Origin: Haladaptatus paucihalophilus DX253
GTDB lineage: Archaea; Halobacteriota; Halobacteria; Halobacteriales; Haladaptataceae
Direction of reading: 5' to 3'
DNA: 64,000 bases
Assembly (NCBI RefSeq): GCF_000376445.1
Contig: NZ_AQXI01000001.1
Location: 1,334,962 to 1,398,961, forward strand
Part shown: in pieces, positions 1,971 to 43,575 of the stretch
How the letters are laid out: each line of letters begins with the position of its first letter
Numbering within the stretch: position 1 is the first letter of the stretch
Translations under genes and position numbers: made by a program
Notes under the pieces: generated by a model
Database searches by the model: none
Told to the model about the DNA's origin: nothing
Seen by the model: only the letters and a program-made list of their open reading frames with translations

Positions 1971-2774
1971 ATGGGAGCACCCGCTGACCTCGAGTTCGAG
2001 GACACGATTCAGCAACGCATCTACCACCACGTCGAGCGGAGCGGTTCGGCCACCGTCGAAGAGGTCCGCGACGAGGTTCGCATCGACTCGCGGTCCGGGT
2101 CGAAACCGGCCCGGTCGGGAACGACGGAGCCGCGGGTTCGGATTCCACCGGAGGAGTTCCACGAGACGGTGGCCGACCTCGTGGACGCCGGTCTGCTCGT
2201 CCGAGACGAGGGCGAACTCCACCTCGCGCTGGACGAAGAGGTCGAGACGTACGAGGAAGAGGACCTCTCGTATCGCATCCGGCAGGCGCGGCAGTCCGAC
2301 TGGAGCGGCATCGAGACGGCGATTCGGGAGGTCGCCGACGAGGGGGCGTCGATTTCCGCCCAGCGCGTCGCCGCCGACATCAGCGACGAGGGAGCGCTCT
2401 TGCGCCGCAACGACCGCCGCTCGCGGATGTTCTACGTCGCCACCGTTGAGGGCGGCGAAAACGACGGCGAGGTCGCCGGATGGGTCCACCTCGACGCGCC
2501 GGAACTCGACCAACTGCGCCATACCGCCGAGTTGACCGTCGGCGTGCGCGGCCCCTTCCGCGAACACGGCATCGGCGGACGGCTACTGGAACGCGCGATG
2601 GACTGGGCGCGCGACGCGGGCTACACGAAGGTCTATCAGAGCCTTCCAGCAACGAACGAGACCGCAATCGAGCTGCTGCAGGAGTACGGGTGGGAAACCG
2701 AGGCCACCCGCGCGGACCACTATCTCGTCGGCGACGAGTTCGTCGACGAGGTGATGATGGCGCGGAAGCTCTGA
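1971..2774 (+). CDS. GNAT-family N-acetyltransferase with N-terminal helix-turn-helix-like region
   Basis: Predicted acetyl-CoA-dependent N-acyltransferase with unknown substrate. The 267-residue protein starts with about 85 residues that resemble a winged-helix region, followed by an acidic linker. The GNAT core runs from about residue 95 to 265. The acetyl-CoA loop is seen as the V-R-G-x-F-R-E-H-G-I-G-G-R-L-L segment near 190-205, followed by the family Asn in ATNETA. The start at 1971 is chosen because of the TATA-like box at 1934-1947. It sits downstream of arcS and convergent to raSEA. A tRNA or ribosomal substrate is possible from context but is not shown by the sequence. Confidence 0.85.
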   Translation: MGAPADLEFEDTIQQRIYHHVERSGSATVEEVRDEVRIDSRSGSKPARSGTTEPRVRIPPEEFHETVADLVDAGLLVRDEGELHLALDEEVETYEEEDLSYRIRQARQSDWSGIETAIREVADEGASISAQRVAADISDEGALLRRNDRRSRMFYVATVEGGENDGEVAGWVHLDAPELDQLRHTAELTVGVRGPFREHGIGGRLLERAMDWARDAGYTKVYQSLPATNETAIELLQEYGWETEATRADHYLVGDEFVDEVMMARKL

Positions 2775-2829
2775 GCTGAACGTTTCGAAAAATTCTCGTC
2801 CCGTCGAGACTCGACGCGCCCGGTAACTG

Positions 2830-2934
2830 CTACTTCCGTCGCTGGCGTGCGAGGAGTCGCCACGCGACGGACACCAGCAGTCCCCCCACGAAGAGCAGGA
2901 CCAGCGGCCAGAGGATGACCGGTCCGGCGTACAT
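2830..2934 (-). CDS. Possible single-span membrane microprotein (34 aa)
   Basis: The 34-codon frame encodes one hydrophobic helix (about residues 3-27) followed by a basic RQRRK tail, a typical membrane-anchored microprotein layout. The reading frame stays open upstream, so a longer start is possible. It lies between the GNAT gene and raSEA. I cannot assign a function and it may be spurious. Confidence 0.35.
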   Translation of the reverse strand: MYAGPVILWPLVLLFVGGLLVSVAWRLLARQRRK

Positions 2935-3145
2935 TAGCGCCGTACCTCTGTCGGTGAGTCCGTGGCGATCCACTGTGCCGTCCGCTCCGGATGCCGGATC
3001 TCTATCCAGCCGTTCGAACAGAACACCGTTTCGTACGTCCCACCTGTGTTCGTCATTCCTTCGGGCCGCTGCCCTCCCCCCGAGAGACGACTCGGGTGGT
3101 ACGTACTTTGTTATCCACGCCGTAGCCCCGATAAGGTCGGCCTGA

Positions 3146-4216
3146 CTACCGCGCCAGCGGGAGGCTATAGCTCGTTTCGCGCTCCATGACGGCCTCCCAC
3201 GTGTGCTCACACTCACAGGAGACCTCCGAGAAGACGGAGGGGTCCTGGCGAAGGTCGAAGTCCTTGATCGCCTTCTGTACGAGGTCGTCGCACTCGCCGC
3301 AGTTGTGCGCGCCGCGGTCGCTGCCGTGGCCAACGGGGTCGGAGACGACGATGGCAGGGACGTCCGCCGTGTCCTCCAGAACGTCACAGACGCTCCAGAG
3401 CCACGGCGGACGGTAGCCGTCGCGGAAGTACAACTCGTCGACCATGGTGTAGCGCTGGACGTTGGTCGGGTTCATCGAGACGGTGTGGGCGTACTCGGCG
3501 CACTTTCGGATGGACTCCTTCATGTCCTGTACCGCCTCGGCTTCGGAGAGGAACAGCGGTTTCATCAGCAGATACGCCTTGATGCCAGCGCCGACGGATT
3601 CGGCGTTCTCGCTGGCCTGAATGAAGTCGTCGAAGTCGAAGTACTTGTTCACGCTGTCGTGGCGCACGCGGTCGTTCGCCGTCTCCAGTCCGATGGCAAC
3701 GTCGGTTTCGAGGCCGACGTCGCGGAAGTCGCGCAGTTTCTCGGGGGTGACGAAATCCGGCAGGCTCTCGACGACGATGCGGTCGCGGTCGGAAAACGTC
3801 TCGGCGATGGCCTCGCGCGTCTCCGCGCCGACCTCGCGCTCGTCCAAGAACGACCCCGAGGTGTAGATTTTGATGAGACCGCTCTTCTCGTCGGCTCCCT
3901 CGCGTTCGTGGTCCAGACAGACCTCGATTTGGTCCATCAGGGCGTCGTGGGGGACGCTTCCGCCTTCGACGGATTCGGCGACGTAGCCGCACATCGTACA
4001 GCCACCGGCGCGCGCCCAGCGACAGCCGCCGGTGTTGAGGATGATGGTGAGACTCTGGTAGACGCCATCGGGCGTGTTGTCCTCGTCCAGCCACACCCGC
4101 GTCGGTTCGTGCGGGTCGTAGTGTTTCTCCTTCCGGGCGCGAATATCGCGCATCACGGAGTTGTGGGCGTCCATACCCTTGCCCCGCTCGTAGCTCTCGG
4201 GAGTCGGCGTACTCAT
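3146..4216 (-). CDS. raSEA: Radical SAM enzyme for archaeosine synthesis (RaSEA, archaeosine synthase beta subunit)
   Basis: RaSEA uses SAM and a 4Fe-4S cluster to convert the lysine-modified preQ0 made by ArcS into archaeosine at tRNA position 15. The 356-residue protein shows the cluster motif C65-x7-C73-x2-C76 preceded by the ILNTGGC sequence. It also has typical Elp3-like radical SAM features such as the GLE-T-ND segment, and late cysteines (C-x2-C and C-x-C near the end) that could hold metal. Length matches the family. It converges with the arcS/GNAT genes, so the two synthase genes are close but not co-transcribed. Confidence 0.93.
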   Translation of the reverse strand: MSTPTPESYERGKGMDAHNSVMRDIRARKEKHYDPHEPTRVWLDEDNTPDGVYQSLTIILNTGGCRWARAGGCTMCGYVAESVEGGSVPHDALMDQIEVCLDHEREGADEKSGLIKIYTSGSFLDEREVGAETREAIAETFSDRDRIVVESLPDFVTPEKLRDFRDVGLETDVAIGLETANDRVRHDSVNKYFDFDDFIQASENAESVGAGIKAYLLMKPLFLSEAEAVQDMKESIRKCAEYAHTVSMNPTNVQRYTMVDELYFRDGYRPPWLWSVCDVLEDTADVPAIVVSDPVGHGSDRGAHNCGECDDLVQKAIKDFDLRQDPSVFSEVSCECEHTWEAVMERETSYSLPLAR

Positions 4217-24480: not shown

Positions 24481-24566
24481 CGTCTACGAATCTCGCGTGA
24501 AGCGGATTAAACGTTGCGCGGTCGGGTGGAAAGAACTTAGCCACTCCTCGGGCTACCTTGGGTCGA

Positions 24567-25211
24567 ATGGAGTTCTCGGGGAACAGACGACAGGTGGCCG
24601 GAGTGGGGTTGGTCGCGCTGGTCGTCGTCGCTGGCGTCCTCCTCTCGCCGGAAGTCGTCCTGCAGCGGGTTCGGCGCGTGACGCACGACCCGCTTCTCGC
24701 CGCGGGGCTGTTTCTCGGCGTCTACCTCGTCCGACCGCTGTTCGCGTGGCCGACCACGGTGGTCGCCGTCGCGGTCGGCTACGTGTACGGGCCGGTCGTC
24801 GGGTTTCCGGTCGCGCTCGGCGGAACCGTGATGAGCGCCTACCTTCCCTTCGCCGCGGCGCGCTACTTCCGCGTCGATTCGGGGGTGTTCGGTCGCCTCG
24901 GCGACTCGGGAGAACGGTTCTTCGACGCGACCGGCGACCTTCGCGGCATGGTCGCCTCGCGCCTCGTCCCCGCCCCTTCGGACGCGGTGTCCGCCGCCGC
25001 CGGGTTGTCGAACGTCCCGGACCGCTCGTTCCTCCTCGGCACCGCCATCGGCGAAGTGCCGTGGATGGTCGTCGCCGTCCTCGCCGGTGGCTCGCTCGAC
25101 ACGCTCTCGGTCCACGAAATCGGGAAGAACTGGGCGGTCGTCGCCGTCGTCGGTATCGGCGGACTGTTCCTGTTGGCCGGACCCGCCTACCGCGCCGTCA
25201 CCGACGATTAG
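24567..25211 (+). CDS. TVP38/TMEM64-family (VTT domain, DedA-like) membrane protein
   Basis: 214 residues with six or so hydrophobic segments. The VTT/SNARE-associated signature is seen: a Y-V-Y-G-P-V-V-G-F reentrant loop near residue 72 and R-L-V-P-A-P-S-D near 133, where the Pro-rich loop is typical. Bacterial and eukaryotic relatives act in lipid scrambling or in envelope ion homeostasis. The ATG at 24567 is preferred over a TTG nine bases upstream. Confidence 0.88.
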   Translation: MEFSGNRRQVAGVGLVALVVVAGVLLSPEVVLQRVRRVTHDPLLAAGLFLGVYLVRPLFAWPTTVVAVAVGYVYGPVVGFPVALGGTVMSAYLPFAAARYFRVDSGVFGRLGDSGERFFDATGDLRGMVASRLVPAPSDAVSAAAGLSNVPDRSFLLGTAIGEVPWMVVAVLAGGSLDTLSVHEIGKNWAVVAVVGIGGLFLLAGPAYRAVTDD

Positions 25212-25471: not shown

Positions 25472-25534
25472 GGAGAGATTTGGAAAAGAGTAGGAGAGAT
25501 TTGGAAGAGAGTGGGCGAGAGTTCGAAAAACGGC
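25472..25534 (+). repeat. 21-bp purine-rich tandem repeat in a promoter
   Basis: Units at 25472-25492 and 25493-25513 read GGAGAGATTTGGAA-R-AGAGT-R. A decayed third copy is at 25514-25534. The array ends directly at the TATA-like element before the Met-rich protein gene, a position where haloarchaeal activators or repressors bind. Confidence 0.7.
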
Positions 25535-25541
25535 TATCTAA
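25533..25541 (+). promoter_or_regulatory. TATA-like element of the Met-rich protein/molybdoenzyme operon
   Basis: CTATCTAAC is centred 26 bp before ATG 25563, predicting a leaderless transcript. It directly follows the tandem repeat array. Confidence 0.45.
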
Positions 25542-25562
25542 CGGGACGCGGTCGGTTCGGAT

Positions 25563-26030
25563 ATGCGATTCAAACGCATACACGTGCTGGCAGTCGTACT
25601 GATGATTTGTGCCGTCCCCGCGACGGTGAGCGCGGCGACGGCCGCGAACGACGTTTCGAGCGCGCCGCTCGCGCAACAGACGACCACCACGGACACGATG
25701 GGCAACGGGACCATGGACGACAACATGACCACGACGACGGACTCCATGGACGACGGGATGAGCGATGACCAGATGACGACGACCGAGACGATGGACGACG
25801 GCATGGGCGACGACAACATGACGGACGGGACGATGACCGATGACAACATGACCGATGACAACATGACCGATGACAACATGACCGATGACAACATGAGTGA
25901 CACCACGACCGACGGAATGAACGACGGCGAGGAGGGCGGAAACTCGGACACTTCCTTGCCCGGATTCGGCATCGTGGTCGCGCTCGTCGCGCTCGTCGGC
26001 GGCGCGCTGTACATCGCACGGAACCGGTGA
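25563..26030 (+). CDS. Methionine-rich secreted protein with PGF-CTERM anchor
   Basis: 155 residues. A Sec signal peptide covers about 1-25. Residues 46-119 are low complexity, Asp/Thr/Met rich, with 15 Met at near 5-residue spacing (M46, 51, 55, 62, 66, 71, 77, 81, 86, 91, 96, 101, 106, 111, 119), including four consecutive T-D-D-N-M units. Residues 132-155 are a PGF-CTERM signal (L-P-G-F-G, a hydrophobic helix, then A-R-N-R), recognised by archaeosortase ArtA for lipid anchoring at the S-layer surface. The exposed Met array could scavenge oxidants or bind Cu(I). The next gene, 3 bp downstream, is a molybdoenzyme, so one operon is likely. Confidence 0.88.
   Translation: MRFKRIHVLAVVLMICAVPATVSAATAANDVSSAPLAQQTTTTDTMGNGTMDDNMTTTTDSMDDGMSDDQMTTTETMDDGMGDDNMTDGTMTDDNMTDDNMTDDNMTDDNMSDTTTDGMNDGEEGGNSDTSLPGFGIVVALVALVGGALYIARNR
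25843..25902 (+). repeat. 15-bp in-gene tandem repeat encoding T-D-D-N-M
   Basis: The unit GATGACAACATGACC and close variants recur without interruption, encoding consecutive D-D-N-M-T pentads of the Met-rich region. Near-identical codons between units suggest recent expansion by slippage or recombination, so copy number may vary between strains. Confidence 0.7.
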
Positions 26031-26033
26031 ACC

Positions 26034-27509
26034 ATGACCGCAGAACAGTCCCCCACGAACTCGCTCGCGGACGTGGCGGCCGACGGAGCGGTCGCTCTCG
26101 CCGCGGGCGTCGCCGCCGTCGCCGGGTCGTACGCCGTGGTCGGCTTCACCCCGTCGTTCGTCGCCGCGCCGGTCAGCGATTTCGTGGTCGCAACGACGCC
26201 CAGCGCCGTCATCGCGTGGTCGATACAGACGCTCGGCGACCTCGGCGACCAACTCGGGTTCCTGCTGGCGCTCGTCCTGACCGCTCTCCTCTTCGCGGTG
26301 ACGGCGGCGGTCGGCGTGCGAATAGCCGACGCCGCCGACCTCCCTGCCGCGCCGGTCGCCGGACTCCTCTGTGTCGCACCCGCGCTGGCGTTGACCGGCG
26401 CTCCCGGTTCCGCGCTGGCCGCCGGAGCGGGTGCCGGGTTCGTCGTCGCGGTGGCTCGATTCGGTGCGACGGAGACGGAATCGGTCTCCGAAACGCGGCG
26501 GAGCATCCTCCGAGCCATCGCCGGGGCGGTCGCGGTCGGTGCCGTCGGCGGCGCGCTCGGGTCCGGGAAGGGCGGCGACGCGCCGAAGCAGACGGGACCA
26601 GTCAGCGCTGACGTGGAGTCGCTCCTCGACGAAGCCGACGCGAAATCGCTCTCCATCGACGGTCTCGAAGGGCTAGTGAGCCAAGAGTTCTATCAGGTGG
26701 ACATCAACAGCGTGGACCCGGTGGTGTCCGCGGAAGACTGGGACCTCCGGGTGACGGGGGCCGTCGAGGAGGAACTGCGCTTTACCCTCGACGACCTCGA
26801 ATCGATGCCCGAGGAACACCGGTTCATCACGCTACGTTGCGTCGGTGAATCGCTGAACGGGATGAAGATGGACAACGCGCTCTGGACGGGCGTGCCGATT
26901 TCGGCGCTGTTCGAGGGAACGACGATGCCCGACGAATGTTGCGTCATGTTCCGCGCCGCGGACGACTACTACGAGGAGTTCCCGCTCTCGGCGCTCGAAG
27001 ACGGCTTTTTGGCCTACGAGATGAATGGCAACCCGCTTCCGCGCTCGCACGGCCACCCCGTCCGGGCGCTGATTCCAGGTCACTGGGGCGAAATCAACGT
27101 CAAATGGATTACCGAAATCGAAGTGCTGGAACGGGAGGCGGAGGGGTACTGGGAGAAACGCGGCTGGCACGGGACGGGACCGGTCAACATCGTCGCCAAA
27201 CTGCACGCCGTCAACCACCTCGACGACGGTCGTGTGCAAGTCGGCGGGCACGCCTACGCCGGGACGCGCGGCATCGAACGCGTCGAGGTGTCCACCGACG
27301 GCGGCGCGTCGTGGACCGACGCCCGCCTCTCCGAACCGCTTCCCGGAACCGACGTGTGGCGGCAGTGGGAGCACACCTACGAACCGTCGGGGTCGCACGA
27401 GGTCGTCGTCAGAGCGACGGACGGGGAGGGAAATCTACAGTCCGCAAACGAGACGGAAGCCTATCCGAACGGCGCGTCCGGGTGGGTGTCGGAGCGTATC
27501 GAGCCGTAG
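26034..27509 (+). CDS. Membrane-anchored sulfite oxidase-family molybdopterin oxidoreductase
   Basis: 491 residues. Residues 15-145 hold about four hydrophobic helices. Then comes a twin-arginine-like element (T-R155-R156-S-I-L-R plus a hydrophobic Ala/Gly/Val run), suggesting that the catalytic part is exported by Tat. The Moco domain (about 215-370) has the single Mo-ligand cysteine C269 in L-R-C-V-G-E-S, plus the H-G-x-P-V-R and K-W-I-T motifs. A Mo-co dimerisation Ig-like domain follows (about 380-485), which sulfite oxidases have and MsrP lacks. The family oxidises sulfite or reduces S- or N-oxides; this enzyme's substrate is unknown. It lies 3 bp after the Met-rich protein gene. Confidence 0.9.
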   Translation: MTAEQSPTNSLADVAADGAVALAAGVAAVAGSYAVVGFTPSFVAAPVSDFVVATTPSAVIAWSIQTLGDLGDQLGFLLALVLTALLFAVTAAVGVRIADAADLPAAPVAGLLCVAPALALTGAPGSALAAGAGAGFVVAVARFGATETESVSETRRSILRAIAGAVAVGAVGGALGSGKGGDAPKQTGPVSADVESLLDEADAKSLSIDGLEGLVSQEFYQVDINSVDPVVSAEDWDLRVTGAVEEELRFTLDDLESMPEEHRFITLRCVGESLNGMKMDNALWTGVPISALFEGTTMPDECCVMFRAADDYYEEFPLSALEDGFLAYEMNGNPLPRSHGHPVRALIPGHWGEINVKWITEIEVLEREAEGYWEKRGWHGTGPVNIVAKLHAVNHLDDGRVQVGGHAYAGTRGIERVEVSTDGGASWTDARLSEPLPGTDVWRQWEHTYEPSGSHEVVVRATDGEGNLQSANETEAYPNGASGWVSERIEP

Positions 27510-27549: not shown

Positions 27550-27825
27550 ATGGACAAGGCGCTCTGGTACCTACTCACGGCGACGCGCGGCGGCGAGAAC
27601 CGCGCGCGCATCATTCGCGCCCTCTCGGAGCGCCCACGGAACGCGAACCAGCTGGCGGAATCGCTCGACGTGGAGTACAAGACGGTTCGACACCACCTCG
27701 ACATGCTCGTTGACCACGGCGTCGTCGAGCCCGGTGACAACGAGTACGGGAAACTCTACTTTCTCACCGACCGGTTCGAACACCATCGGGACGCGTTCGA
27801 GGAGATAATGGAGCAGATAGAATGA
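27550..27825 (+). CDS. Winged-helix (ArsR-like) transcriptional regulator
   Basis: 91 residues forming a compact wHTH: helix 1 (W-Y-L-L-T-A-T-R-G-G-E-N), recognition helix (V-E-Y-K-T-V-R-H-H-L-D-M-L) and a wing (E-Y-G-K-L-Y-F-L-T). No metal-binding Cys is present, so it is not a classic metal sensor. It overlaps the next gene by 4 bases. As I recall, wHTH genes coupled to a small membrane protein of this kind are common in haloarchaea; the membrane partner may sense or sequester the regulator. Confidence 0.87.
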   Translation: MDKALWYLLTATRGGENRARIIRALSERPRNANQLAESLDVEYKTVRHHLDMLVDHGVVEPGDNEYGKLYFLTDRFEHHRDAFEEIMEQIE

Positions 27826-28109
27826 ACTCGATACAACTCGCAAGCGGACTCGCGGTCGTGAACATCCTCCTGCTGGCAGTGTTGGTTGCCGTTTGGGTAC
27901 GAAGCTATCTGAAGTTCCGCACCTCGCTCGTCCTCGGCCTGCTTGCCTTCGCCCTCGTGATGCTCGCCGAGAACGCCGTCGCCATCTACTACTTCTTCGG
28001 CATGAAGATGTTCTACTCCGGCGACCCGGCGGTTCAGCAGGCCGTGCTGGTGCTCCGCGCGCTCCAACTCGTCGCGCTCGTGTTCCTGACGTGGGTGACG
28101 GTGAAGTAG
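27822..28109 (+). CDS. Small three-helix membrane protein (DUF7521-like)
   Basis: 95 residues with three hydrophobic segments (about 8-28, 34-57, 74-93) and little else exposed. It overlaps the wHTH regulator by ATGA, so it is translationally coupled. The assignment to DUF7521 is from memory. It may be the membrane partner of the regulator. Confidence 0.75.
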   Translation: MNSIQLASGLAVVNILLLAVLVAVWVRSYLKFRTSLVLGLLAFALVMLAENAVAIYYFFGMKMFYSGDPAVQQAVLVLRALQLVALVFLTWVTVK

Positions 28110-42156: not shown

Positions 42157-43575
42157 TTATAGGTTTTCGTGAATCGTCCCTTCCGCCCGCCGCATAACCT
42201 CACCAACCGCGAGTCCGGTTTCCGTCGCCACGGCCAGCGCGTCGTCGAACTCCGCGCTCACGTCGTAGACCGTCCCGGACTCGTCGCGGGCGACTTTGAC
42301 CGACACGTCGAATTCCCCTCCGTCTAACTCCTCTCCGTCTATTTCCAGCGTCGCCGTCTCGAACTCCCGGTGGGCAATCCAGCGGTGGCGGACACCCGTC
42401 TCGCGGACGCCCAGCGTCCCGGTCTCCTCGGCGAGTTTCCGGGCGACCCGTTCTGCGTCCTCGGGTTTGACGACGACCTTCACGACGTGCCCCGGTCGGG
42501 CCTTCTTCATCGTCGCGGGGAGAATCGAGACATCGCGTGCGCCTGCGTCCGCGAGGATTTCTTGAAGCCCGCCAAGCACCTCCGGCGGGGCGTCGTCCAG
42601 ATTGGTTTCGAGGACGGTGATGTCGTCGCGCACGAGACCACCGCTCGACTCACCGGCGAGGACGCGCAACACGTTCGGATGGTCGGGGAAATCGTGGCCG
42701 CCAGCGCCGTATCCAGAGCCGTCGACGTTCAGCGTCGGAAGCGTTTCGACGCCATCGGCGAAGTGGGCCAAAATCGCGGCACCGGTCGGCGTGAGCAGTT
42801 CCGCTTCGACGGGGCCGCCGGACAGCGACCAGTCCGCACCCGCCGCGATTTCCACGACCGCCGGTGCGGGTATCGGGAACGTTCCGTGGCTCATGCCGAC
42901 TTCGCCGCCGCCGGTCGCCAGGGGCGTCGTCACGATTCGGTCGGCGTCGAGGTCGGCGAACAGCAGGGACGCGCCGACGATATCCGCGATCGCGTCGTCG
43001 GTCCCGACCTCGTGGAAGTGGGTCGAATCGAGGTCGGTGTCGTGGACGCTCGCCTCCGCCTCGCCGAGAATTCGAAAGACGGCTTTGGCGTCGCGTTCGA
43101 TAGGGACGTCGAGACCCATGGATTCGAGCACGTCGATGACCTCGCGGTAGGTCCGGGCCGGACCGGAACCCTCGGCATGCTGGTGGTTGTGGTGATGGTT
43201 GTGGTCGTGCTGGTGTGTGTGCTCATCGTGGCCGTGATGGCCGTCGTCGTCATCGTGGTCGTGTTCGTGGTCGCCGTCGTCCCCGTGATGGTGGTCGCCG
43301 TGGTCGTGTATCTCCCCGTTTCCGTGGTGCTGGTCGTGACCGTCGTCGCGTGCGTTGTCGTCCCCGTCTTCCGATTCGTCCCCACCGTCGGTCAGAAGAA
43401 CGGCGACGCTCGTCGCTGAAATCCCGTTTTTGACGACGGTTTCGACCTCGTACTCCACGTCGAGGGCGTCTTCGACCGGTTCCAGCGCGTCCCGATTCGC
43501 TCCCGCGTCGAGCAGCGCTCCGAGAATCATATCGCCGCTGGCCCCCATTCGGCCGTCGAACGCAAGCGTTCTCAT
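42157..43575 (-). CDS. larC: LarC, nickel-pincer cofactor nickel insertase, with His-rich insert
   Basis: 472 residues. LarC inserts nickel into the pyridinium bis-thiocarboxylic mononucleotide to make the cofactor of lactate racemase LarA and relatives. The N-terminus D-G-R-M-G-A-S-G-D-M-I-L-G-A-L-L, the H-F-H-E-V-G region (F-H-E-V-G-T-D-D-A-I-A-D) and the C-terminal V-K-V-V-V-K-P segment are typical. Residues about 78-138 form an insert with 23 His plus many Asp, a probable nickel store or chelator. The gene is one continuous frame, unlike bacterial versions that need a programmed frameshift. larA, larB and larE are not in this window. Confidence 0.92.
   Translation of the reverse strand: MRTLAFDGRMGASGDMILGALLDAGANRDALEPVEDALDVEYEVETVVKNGISATSVAVLLTDGGDESEDGDDNARDDGHDQHHGNGEIHDHGDHHHGDDGDHEHDHDDDDGHHGHDEHTHQHDHNHHHNHQHAEGSGPARTYREVIDVLESMGLDVPIERDAKAVFRILGEAEASVHDTDLDSTHFHEVGTDDAIADIVGASLLFADLDADRIVTTPLATGGGEVGMSHGTFPIPAPAVVEIAAGADWSLSGGPVEAELLTPTGAAILAHFADGVETLPTLNVDGSGYGAGGHDFPDHPNVLRVLAGESSGGLVRDDITVLETNLDDAPPEVLGGLQEILADAGARDVSILPATMKKARPGHVVKVVVKPEDAERVARKLAEETGTLGVRETGVRHRWIAHREFETATLEIDGEELDGGEFDVSVKVARDESGTVYDVSAEFDDALAVATETGLAVGEVMRRAEGTIHENL

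Follow-up and report, generated by a model that had tools for sequence, protein, structure and literature searches.

Haloarchaea carry adjacent genes for a methionine-rich surface protein and a membrane-tethered molybdoenzyme of the sulfite oxidase fold. We consider this pair to be, with fair but far from complete confidence, an archaeal cell-surface methionine sink that comes with its own repair enzyme. Sacrificial methionine (Met) combined with repair is the best explanation because the two genes are strongly linked and because the Met array is kept on unrelated scaffolds; counted against it are a fold and a dimer domain closest to those of sulfite dehydrogenases. The best reading of the pair, by analogy, would be a variant of the bacterial MrpX-YedY and BcrXQP systems. 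Oxidant defence by a Met-rich surface protein and a molybdenum enzyme, the probable role of the pair, had until now been described in bacteria only. If the explanation is true, the pair would be the first archaeal sacrificial-methionine system, as far as literature searches show, with a design convergent with that of bacteria and a different subclass of enzyme.

We describe the pair in Haladaptatus paucihalophilus DX253, in a stretch of 64,000 nucleotides (the window; contig NZ_AQXI01000001.1, positions 1,334,962 to 1,398,961) whose coordinates are used throughout; the genes and protein features of the operon lie on its plus strand. The upstream gene (25563-26030) encodes a surface protein of 155 amino acids with a signal peptide and a PGF-CTERM anchor of the type processed by archaeosortase. 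Between them lies an array of 15 Met in residues 46-119 (25698-25919), built in part from recent 15-bp tandem repeats that encode DDNMT. The sorting motif and C-terminal helix occupy residues 128-155 (25944-26027) and match TIGR04126 at 38 bits, against a cut-off of 24.5, as well as PF18204. Three bases separate the stop codon from the ATG of the 491-amino-acid enzyme (26034). The first-pass annotation had described both the anchored protein with its 15 Met and the three-base gap, and the profile match and the coordinates bear it out.

Such an array is rare. The 100 residues before the PGF-CTERM motif hold 15 Met here and 0-3 in six other genuine PGF-CTERM proteins of the same genome. When a Met-rich segment is defined as at least 6 Met per polar 60-residue window, only 1 of 5,051 six-frame open reading frames (ORFs) qualifies, in 474 kb drawn from some ten genomes of haloarchaea, and it is the protein described here; none of the 5,050 other ORFs in this control DNA does, and the runner-up has 3 Met. 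This background, together with the in-frame signal peptide and anchor, rules out chance low complexity or Asp codons read out of frame as the origin of the array.

The pairing extends across many haloarchaeal families. Of 146 related genomes, 106 contain homologues of the enzyme at E <= 1e-20, short paralogues among them. We inspected the flanks of 90 of those loci and of 80 named loci, which left 153 distinct loci after removal of duplicates. A Met-rich exported ORF lies immediately upstream of the enzyme in 42 of the 153, usually overlapping the enzyme start or ending a few bases before it. Elsewhere in these flanks no Met-rich ORF was found, except antisense reads of the partner gene. The genera with a Met-rich partner include at least Haladaptatus, Halorussus, Halomicrococcus, Halostella, Halorientalis, Haloferax, Halogranum, Halonotius, Halobellus, Halobaculum, and Natronomonas, and the pair is annotated in Halobaculum halobium too. 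Conserved adjacency in haloarchaeal genomes was the check that the first-pass annotation had put forward, and the pair passes it strongly.

The remaining 111 of the 153 loci have no adjacent Met-rich gene by the criterion used; there, the enzyme must act without the partner, or the partner must be located elsewhere. One Halostella-like genome (L224) encodes a Met-rich Spondin_N-like lipoprotein (2297-3250, minus strand) that is unlinked to the enzyme and resembles the Spondin_N lipoprotein adjoining it in other genomes. Mapped onto a FastTree phylogeny, presence of the Met partner changes about 25 times, with at least 16 changes forced by well supported branches, and it has thus been gained or lost repeatedly. 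A strict Met pattern applied genome-wide misses most of Halorussus and is too narrow for counting all arrays; its matches outside the operon are mixed, and comprise cupredoxin-like, archaellum accessory, ribosomal L12-like, and acidic repeat proteins as well as one unlinked Met-rich Spondin_N lipoprotein. At one further locus (L161, a draft metagenome assembly), a lipoprotein encoded between about 450 and 30 bp ahead of the enzyme has a Met-rich tail that is apparently out of frame.

The Met array persists while the protein that carries it changes. Haladaptatus, Halorussus, Halomicrococcus, and Halorientalis have the form with signal peptide, array, and PGF-CTERM, and Halostella joins the array to another C-terminal helix. 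The partner is a lipoprotein in Halonotius, Halobellus, Halobaculum, and Natronomonas, and a lipoprotein with a Spondin_N domain in Haloferax mucosum and Halogranum. Two partners that had been labelled automatically as Spondin_N types proved on inspection by eye to be a plain Met-rich lipoprotein (L035) and a protein with a DUF7482-like domain (L151). Pooled over 36 distinct segments, the arrays consist of Asp (21.5%), Met (18.0%), Thr (14.8%), Ser (11.8%), Glu (11.4%), and Gly (10.7%); Leu, Ile, Val, and Phe together make up about 0.5%, Cys 0.3%, and His and Lys 0.1% each. The commonest Met spacing is 5. This composition, and the retention of the array while the scaffold changes, imply that the thioethers are what is conserved. 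A role for the thioethers is the natural reading, since Leu or Ile could stand in for Met if the role were hydrophobic, and His would normally be present if it involved copper. Scaffolds that are exchanged repeatedly while the array stays constant amount to an unusually clean natural experiment, in which selection appears to retain methionine itself rather than a fold or a sequence.

The downstream gene (26034-27509) encodes a membrane-tethered molybdopterin oxidoreductase of 491 amino acids with a sulfite oxidase fold (PF00174, PF03404). An AlphaFold2 model, built with 36 relatives in the alignment (pLDDT 88, pTM 0.81), predicts a five-helix membrane region at residues 11-176 (26064-26561), with helices at 11-36, 69-101, 105-121, 124-142, and 153-176. 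The twin arginine R155-R156 (26496-26501) directly precedes the fifth helix and is read as an internal Tat signal from its conservation and from the arrangement in Sco3746. The molybdenum-cofactor domain follows (PF00174, 26718-27152, E 4.3e-39), with the Mo ligand C269 (26838-26840) in the motif LRCVGE, identified by conservation and by alignment with the MsrP Cys; the dimerisation domain comes last (PF03404, 27222-27446, E 2.6e-8). Among 159 aligned relatives C269 and R156 are each invariant (159/159), and R155 is kept in 157. Helices, internal twin arginine, and C269 had all been read from the letters at the outset, and the model and the relatives agree with that reading.

Judged by its sequence, the enzyme is neither MsrP nor a true sulfite oxidase. 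It shares with MsrP the Cys ligand in an RCV motif (LRCV here, MRCV in Escherichia coli MsrP, LQC in plant sulfite oxidase, LTCV in actinobacterial relatives) and the FYxxxxxxxDP entrance strand, where FYQVDINSVDP matches FYEFGLDKADP of MsrP (FYxxDxxxxDP); hhalign against MsrP returns 97.9% with RCV and FY...DP aligned. The enzyme scores 48.5 bits against the MsrP equivalog model NF003767, whose cut-off is 207. The dimer domain, absent from MsrP, is present as PF03404 and as a sulfite-oxidase-like C-terminal part of the model. Where MsrQ was sought beside the enzyme, the neighbours are instead a winged-helix gene and a gene for a three-helix protein of 95 amino acids. The first-pass annotation had proposed, by analogy with bacteria, a sacrificial-Met protein and its repair enzyme, with the caveat that MsrP lacks a dimer domain; the caveat was well placed, for the enzyme is not MsrP, and the proposal is supported in part, with the adjacency (42 of 153 loci, with Met kept on unrelated scaffolds) making it the best explanation.

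A sulfite oxidase fold with a dimer domain is likewise present, and Foldseek ranks sulfite dehydrogenase and sulfite oxidase nearest, with both domains matched (2blf, E 2.8e-22; 1sox also), whereas MsrP matches over the first domain only (E 5e-10). Scores against the sulfite oxidase models nonetheless lie far below their cut-offs (SorA 109/600, SoxC 108/420, SorT 106/570 bits), and the residues expected of a sulfite oxidase are not conserved in the 159 relatives. In the chicken enzyme these are the sulfite-binding R138 and R190 and the catalytic Tyr322; equivalence was assigned by sequence alignment, for R138 by way of plant sulfite oxidase. The position of R138 is V222 here (Val in 158 of 159 relatives), that of R190 is L274 (Leu in 144 of 159), and that of Tyr322 is Y328 (Tyr, Phe, or Trp in 89, 29, and 28 of 159). 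The third sulfite-binding Arg has no firm alignment in the enzyme.

Its architecture places the enzyme in a haloarchaeal branch of the five-helix, Sec/Tat-dependent Sco3746 family of Mo-cofactor proteins. Members of this family use Sec and Tat together, and the authors who described them note euryarchaeal homologues and a parallel with MsrP/MsrQ (eLife 2017, PMC5449189). Like Sco3746, the haloarchaeal enzyme has five membrane helices, a twin arginine directly before the fifth, and a Mo-cofactor domain predicted to lie outside; unlike Sco3746, haloarchaeal enzymes mostly miss the heme-ligating His of helices 2-4. His is absent from the helices of the protein studied here; across the helix 2-4 columns of the 159 relatives it occurs at column 72 in 49 and at column 75 in 26, with none in helices 3-4. 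A membrane heme is disfavored as an electron path by the lack of a conserved His set. The Mo-ligand motif also differs, being LRCVGE in haloarchaea and LTCVSNE in Sco3746-type relatives from Rhodococcus and Streptomyces. We found no report in the literature of a substrate for the Sco3746 family. A 2018 review describes molybdoenzymes of the sulfite oxidase family as widespread in archaea, with no known activity on methionine sulfoxide (PMC6211008); for one large branch of them, the operon suggests a definite substrate and function that can be put to the test. A divergent sub-branch of the enzyme sits in cytochrome c maturation clusters, beside CcmE-like genes and without a Met-rich partner (L084-L086, L088-L090, L236), and may have a different function.

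Two bacterial systems provide the comparison. In Brucella melitensis, bcrXQP combines a Met-rich MXKDX peptide with MsrPQ; HOCl induces these genes, which contribute to resistance against it, and in the authors' proposal BcrX undergoes oxidation followed by re-reduction (PMC8315932). MrpX-YedY/YedZ of Azospira suillum, as cited in PMC8315932 and PMC9751292, is another bacterial Met-rich peptide with MsrPQ. The haloarchaeal pair resembles these systems in that an exported Met-rich repeat protein is encoded beside a molybdoenzyme of the sulfite oxidase fold. It differs in that the Met protein is anchored, by archaeosortase, lipid, or helix; in that the protein is rich in Asp, Thr, Ser, and Glu with almost no Lys, whereas MrpX and BcrX contain lysine; and in that one polypeptide, with five helices and a dimer domain, stands in place of MsrP and MsrQ. 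The MXKDX repeat model TIGR02953 matches the Haladaptatus protein only faintly (18.3 bits, below the cut-off of 41). We found no archaeal Met-rich partner described in the open-access literature.

We propose the following sequence of events. The upstream gene would supply an anchored, unstructured, acidic "thioether brush" at the cell surface. HOCl, HOBr, and similar oxidants arising in sunlit brine would oxidise its Met residues to sulfoxide before attacking proteins of the S-layer and the membrane. Sec and Tat together would insert the enzyme and leave its Mo-cofactor domain on the outer side; the extracellular location is presumed. The enzyme would then reduce the methionine sulfoxides back to Met with electrons from a source other than MsrQ. 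The reductase activity, the nature of the oxidant, and the alternative electron source are proposals. A broader version is more tentative, and we would not bet on it: the whole Sco3746-type family, in haloarchaea and Actinobacteria alike, may be one more class of extracytoplasmic methionine sulfoxide reductases in a self-contained Sec/Tat polypeptide, with haloarchaea independently fitting a Met-only brush to several unrelated scaffolds and Actinobacteria using fasciclin proteins.

The partner slot in Actinobacteria bears on a different explanation, that the enzyme serves general maintenance of surface proteins (S-layer, Spondin_N, and fasciclin-like adhesins) and that the Met array, present in the operon by coincidence, acts just as a tethered buffer or sensor of redox state whose own repair is secondary. 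The Sco3746-type enzyme has a Met-rich partner in haloarchaea and a fasciclin partner in Actinobacteria: in 6 of the 7 loci inspected on actinobacterial plasmids, relatives of the enzyme adjoin surface proteins with fasciclin domains (L205, L206, L231, L232, L233, and L235), a pairing that fits a wider role in surface-protein care. The slot also holds different surface proteins among haloarchaea, some of them Met-poor, such as DUF7482 and Spondin_N lipoproteins. Several haloarchaeal partners, however, have no folded domain and consist of an anchor and a Met array alone, and in these the array must be the functional part; we regard general maintenance as unlikely. Two of the actinobacterial plasmid loci have an anti-sigma factor close by, one of them with a sigma factor as well.

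Rather improbable is a second alternative, in which the enzyme oxidises sulfite or another small sulfur compound and the Met-rich protein forms a glycosylated surface stalk, with Met present only as a by-product of N-X-T sequons. The sulfite oxidase fold with its dimer domain speaks for it, as do the NMT sequons in the Haladaptatus protein, but the family as a whole has lost the Arg and Tyr positions for sulfite. Across the 36 segments, moreover, Met occupies the X of an N-X-S/T sequon in only 21 of 144 sequons, and these account for only 21 of the 516 Met; Met as a by-product of N-X-T sequons is thereby ruled out.

Least probable of all is metal handling, with Cu(I) or Ag(I) bound by the array and an enzyme whose role is unrelated or metal-dependent: copper proteins are known to contain Met-rich segments, and cupredoxin-like proteins of the same genomes carry Met arrays, but those copper-type arrays combine Met with His (HMDDEHMDDEHM), a combination that the enzyme-linked segments, with almost no His or Cys, do not show. 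The stretches inspected beside the operon contain no copper ATPase or chaperone, the one exception being a metal ATPase near a plasmid locus, and the window's operon has no neighbouring copper genes; the passages searched of an RNA-seq study of Haloferax alexandrinus under silver name neither a Met-rich surface protein nor a sulfite oxidase gene, an absence that would count only if that strain carries the operon (PMC10694973). The cupredoxin-like proteins with Met-plus-His repeats (L217, L219, and L230) are exported and distinct from the Met-only arrays of the operon.

Two genes follow the enzyme. An ArsR-like winged-helix regulator of 91 amino acids (27550-27825, PF01022) overlaps by 4 bp the gene for the three-helix membrane protein of 95 amino acids (27822-28109), which has one more paralogue in the genome. 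The first-pass annotation had not included these two genes. In roughly half of the loci, homologues of both come after the enzyme with nearly constant spacing. The Met-rich and enzyme genes are presumably co-transcribed, and the winged-helix gene may control them.

The region before the operon contains a potential target for such control. An imperfect direct-repeat array of 21-bp units (25472-25529; TRF 21 bp x 2.8) is proposed as an operator. It can also be read as blocks phased at about 11 bp, GATTTGGAA, GAGTnGGnGA, and GAGTTCGAAAA, which are GGAAC-like. It is unique in the genome even when as many as 3 mismatches are tolerated. Related phased arrays that end in GAAAA precede the operon in other haloarchaea, in a similar style across families. 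On an anchored motif score designed post hoc, 23 of 93 loci reach at least 16, whereas none of 240 control windows does; the array described here scores only 11.2, and in a plain identity statistic on the promoter array lag 11 does not stand out from other lags. As a lead, we suggest the 11-bp phased array as a candidate operator for the operon's winged-helix regulator. A BRE-like CGAAAAACGG and a TATA-like CTATCTAA, read from the letters (25524-25541, plus strand), overlap the end of the array. The TATA-like element lies about 26 bp before the start codon, GAAAA stands upstream of the start across families, and the spacing is consistent with a leaderless haloarchaeal transcript.

Two further observations concern the surroundings. 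A gene for a VTT-domain membrane protein (DedA/TVP38-like) occupies 24558-25211 of the window; it is conserved upstream of the operon in Haladaptatus, Halorussus, and some other families. Farther away, at 43201-43305, GTGGTCGTGATG-like tandem repeats can be read on the minus strand as a stretch rich in His and Asp that may bind metal.
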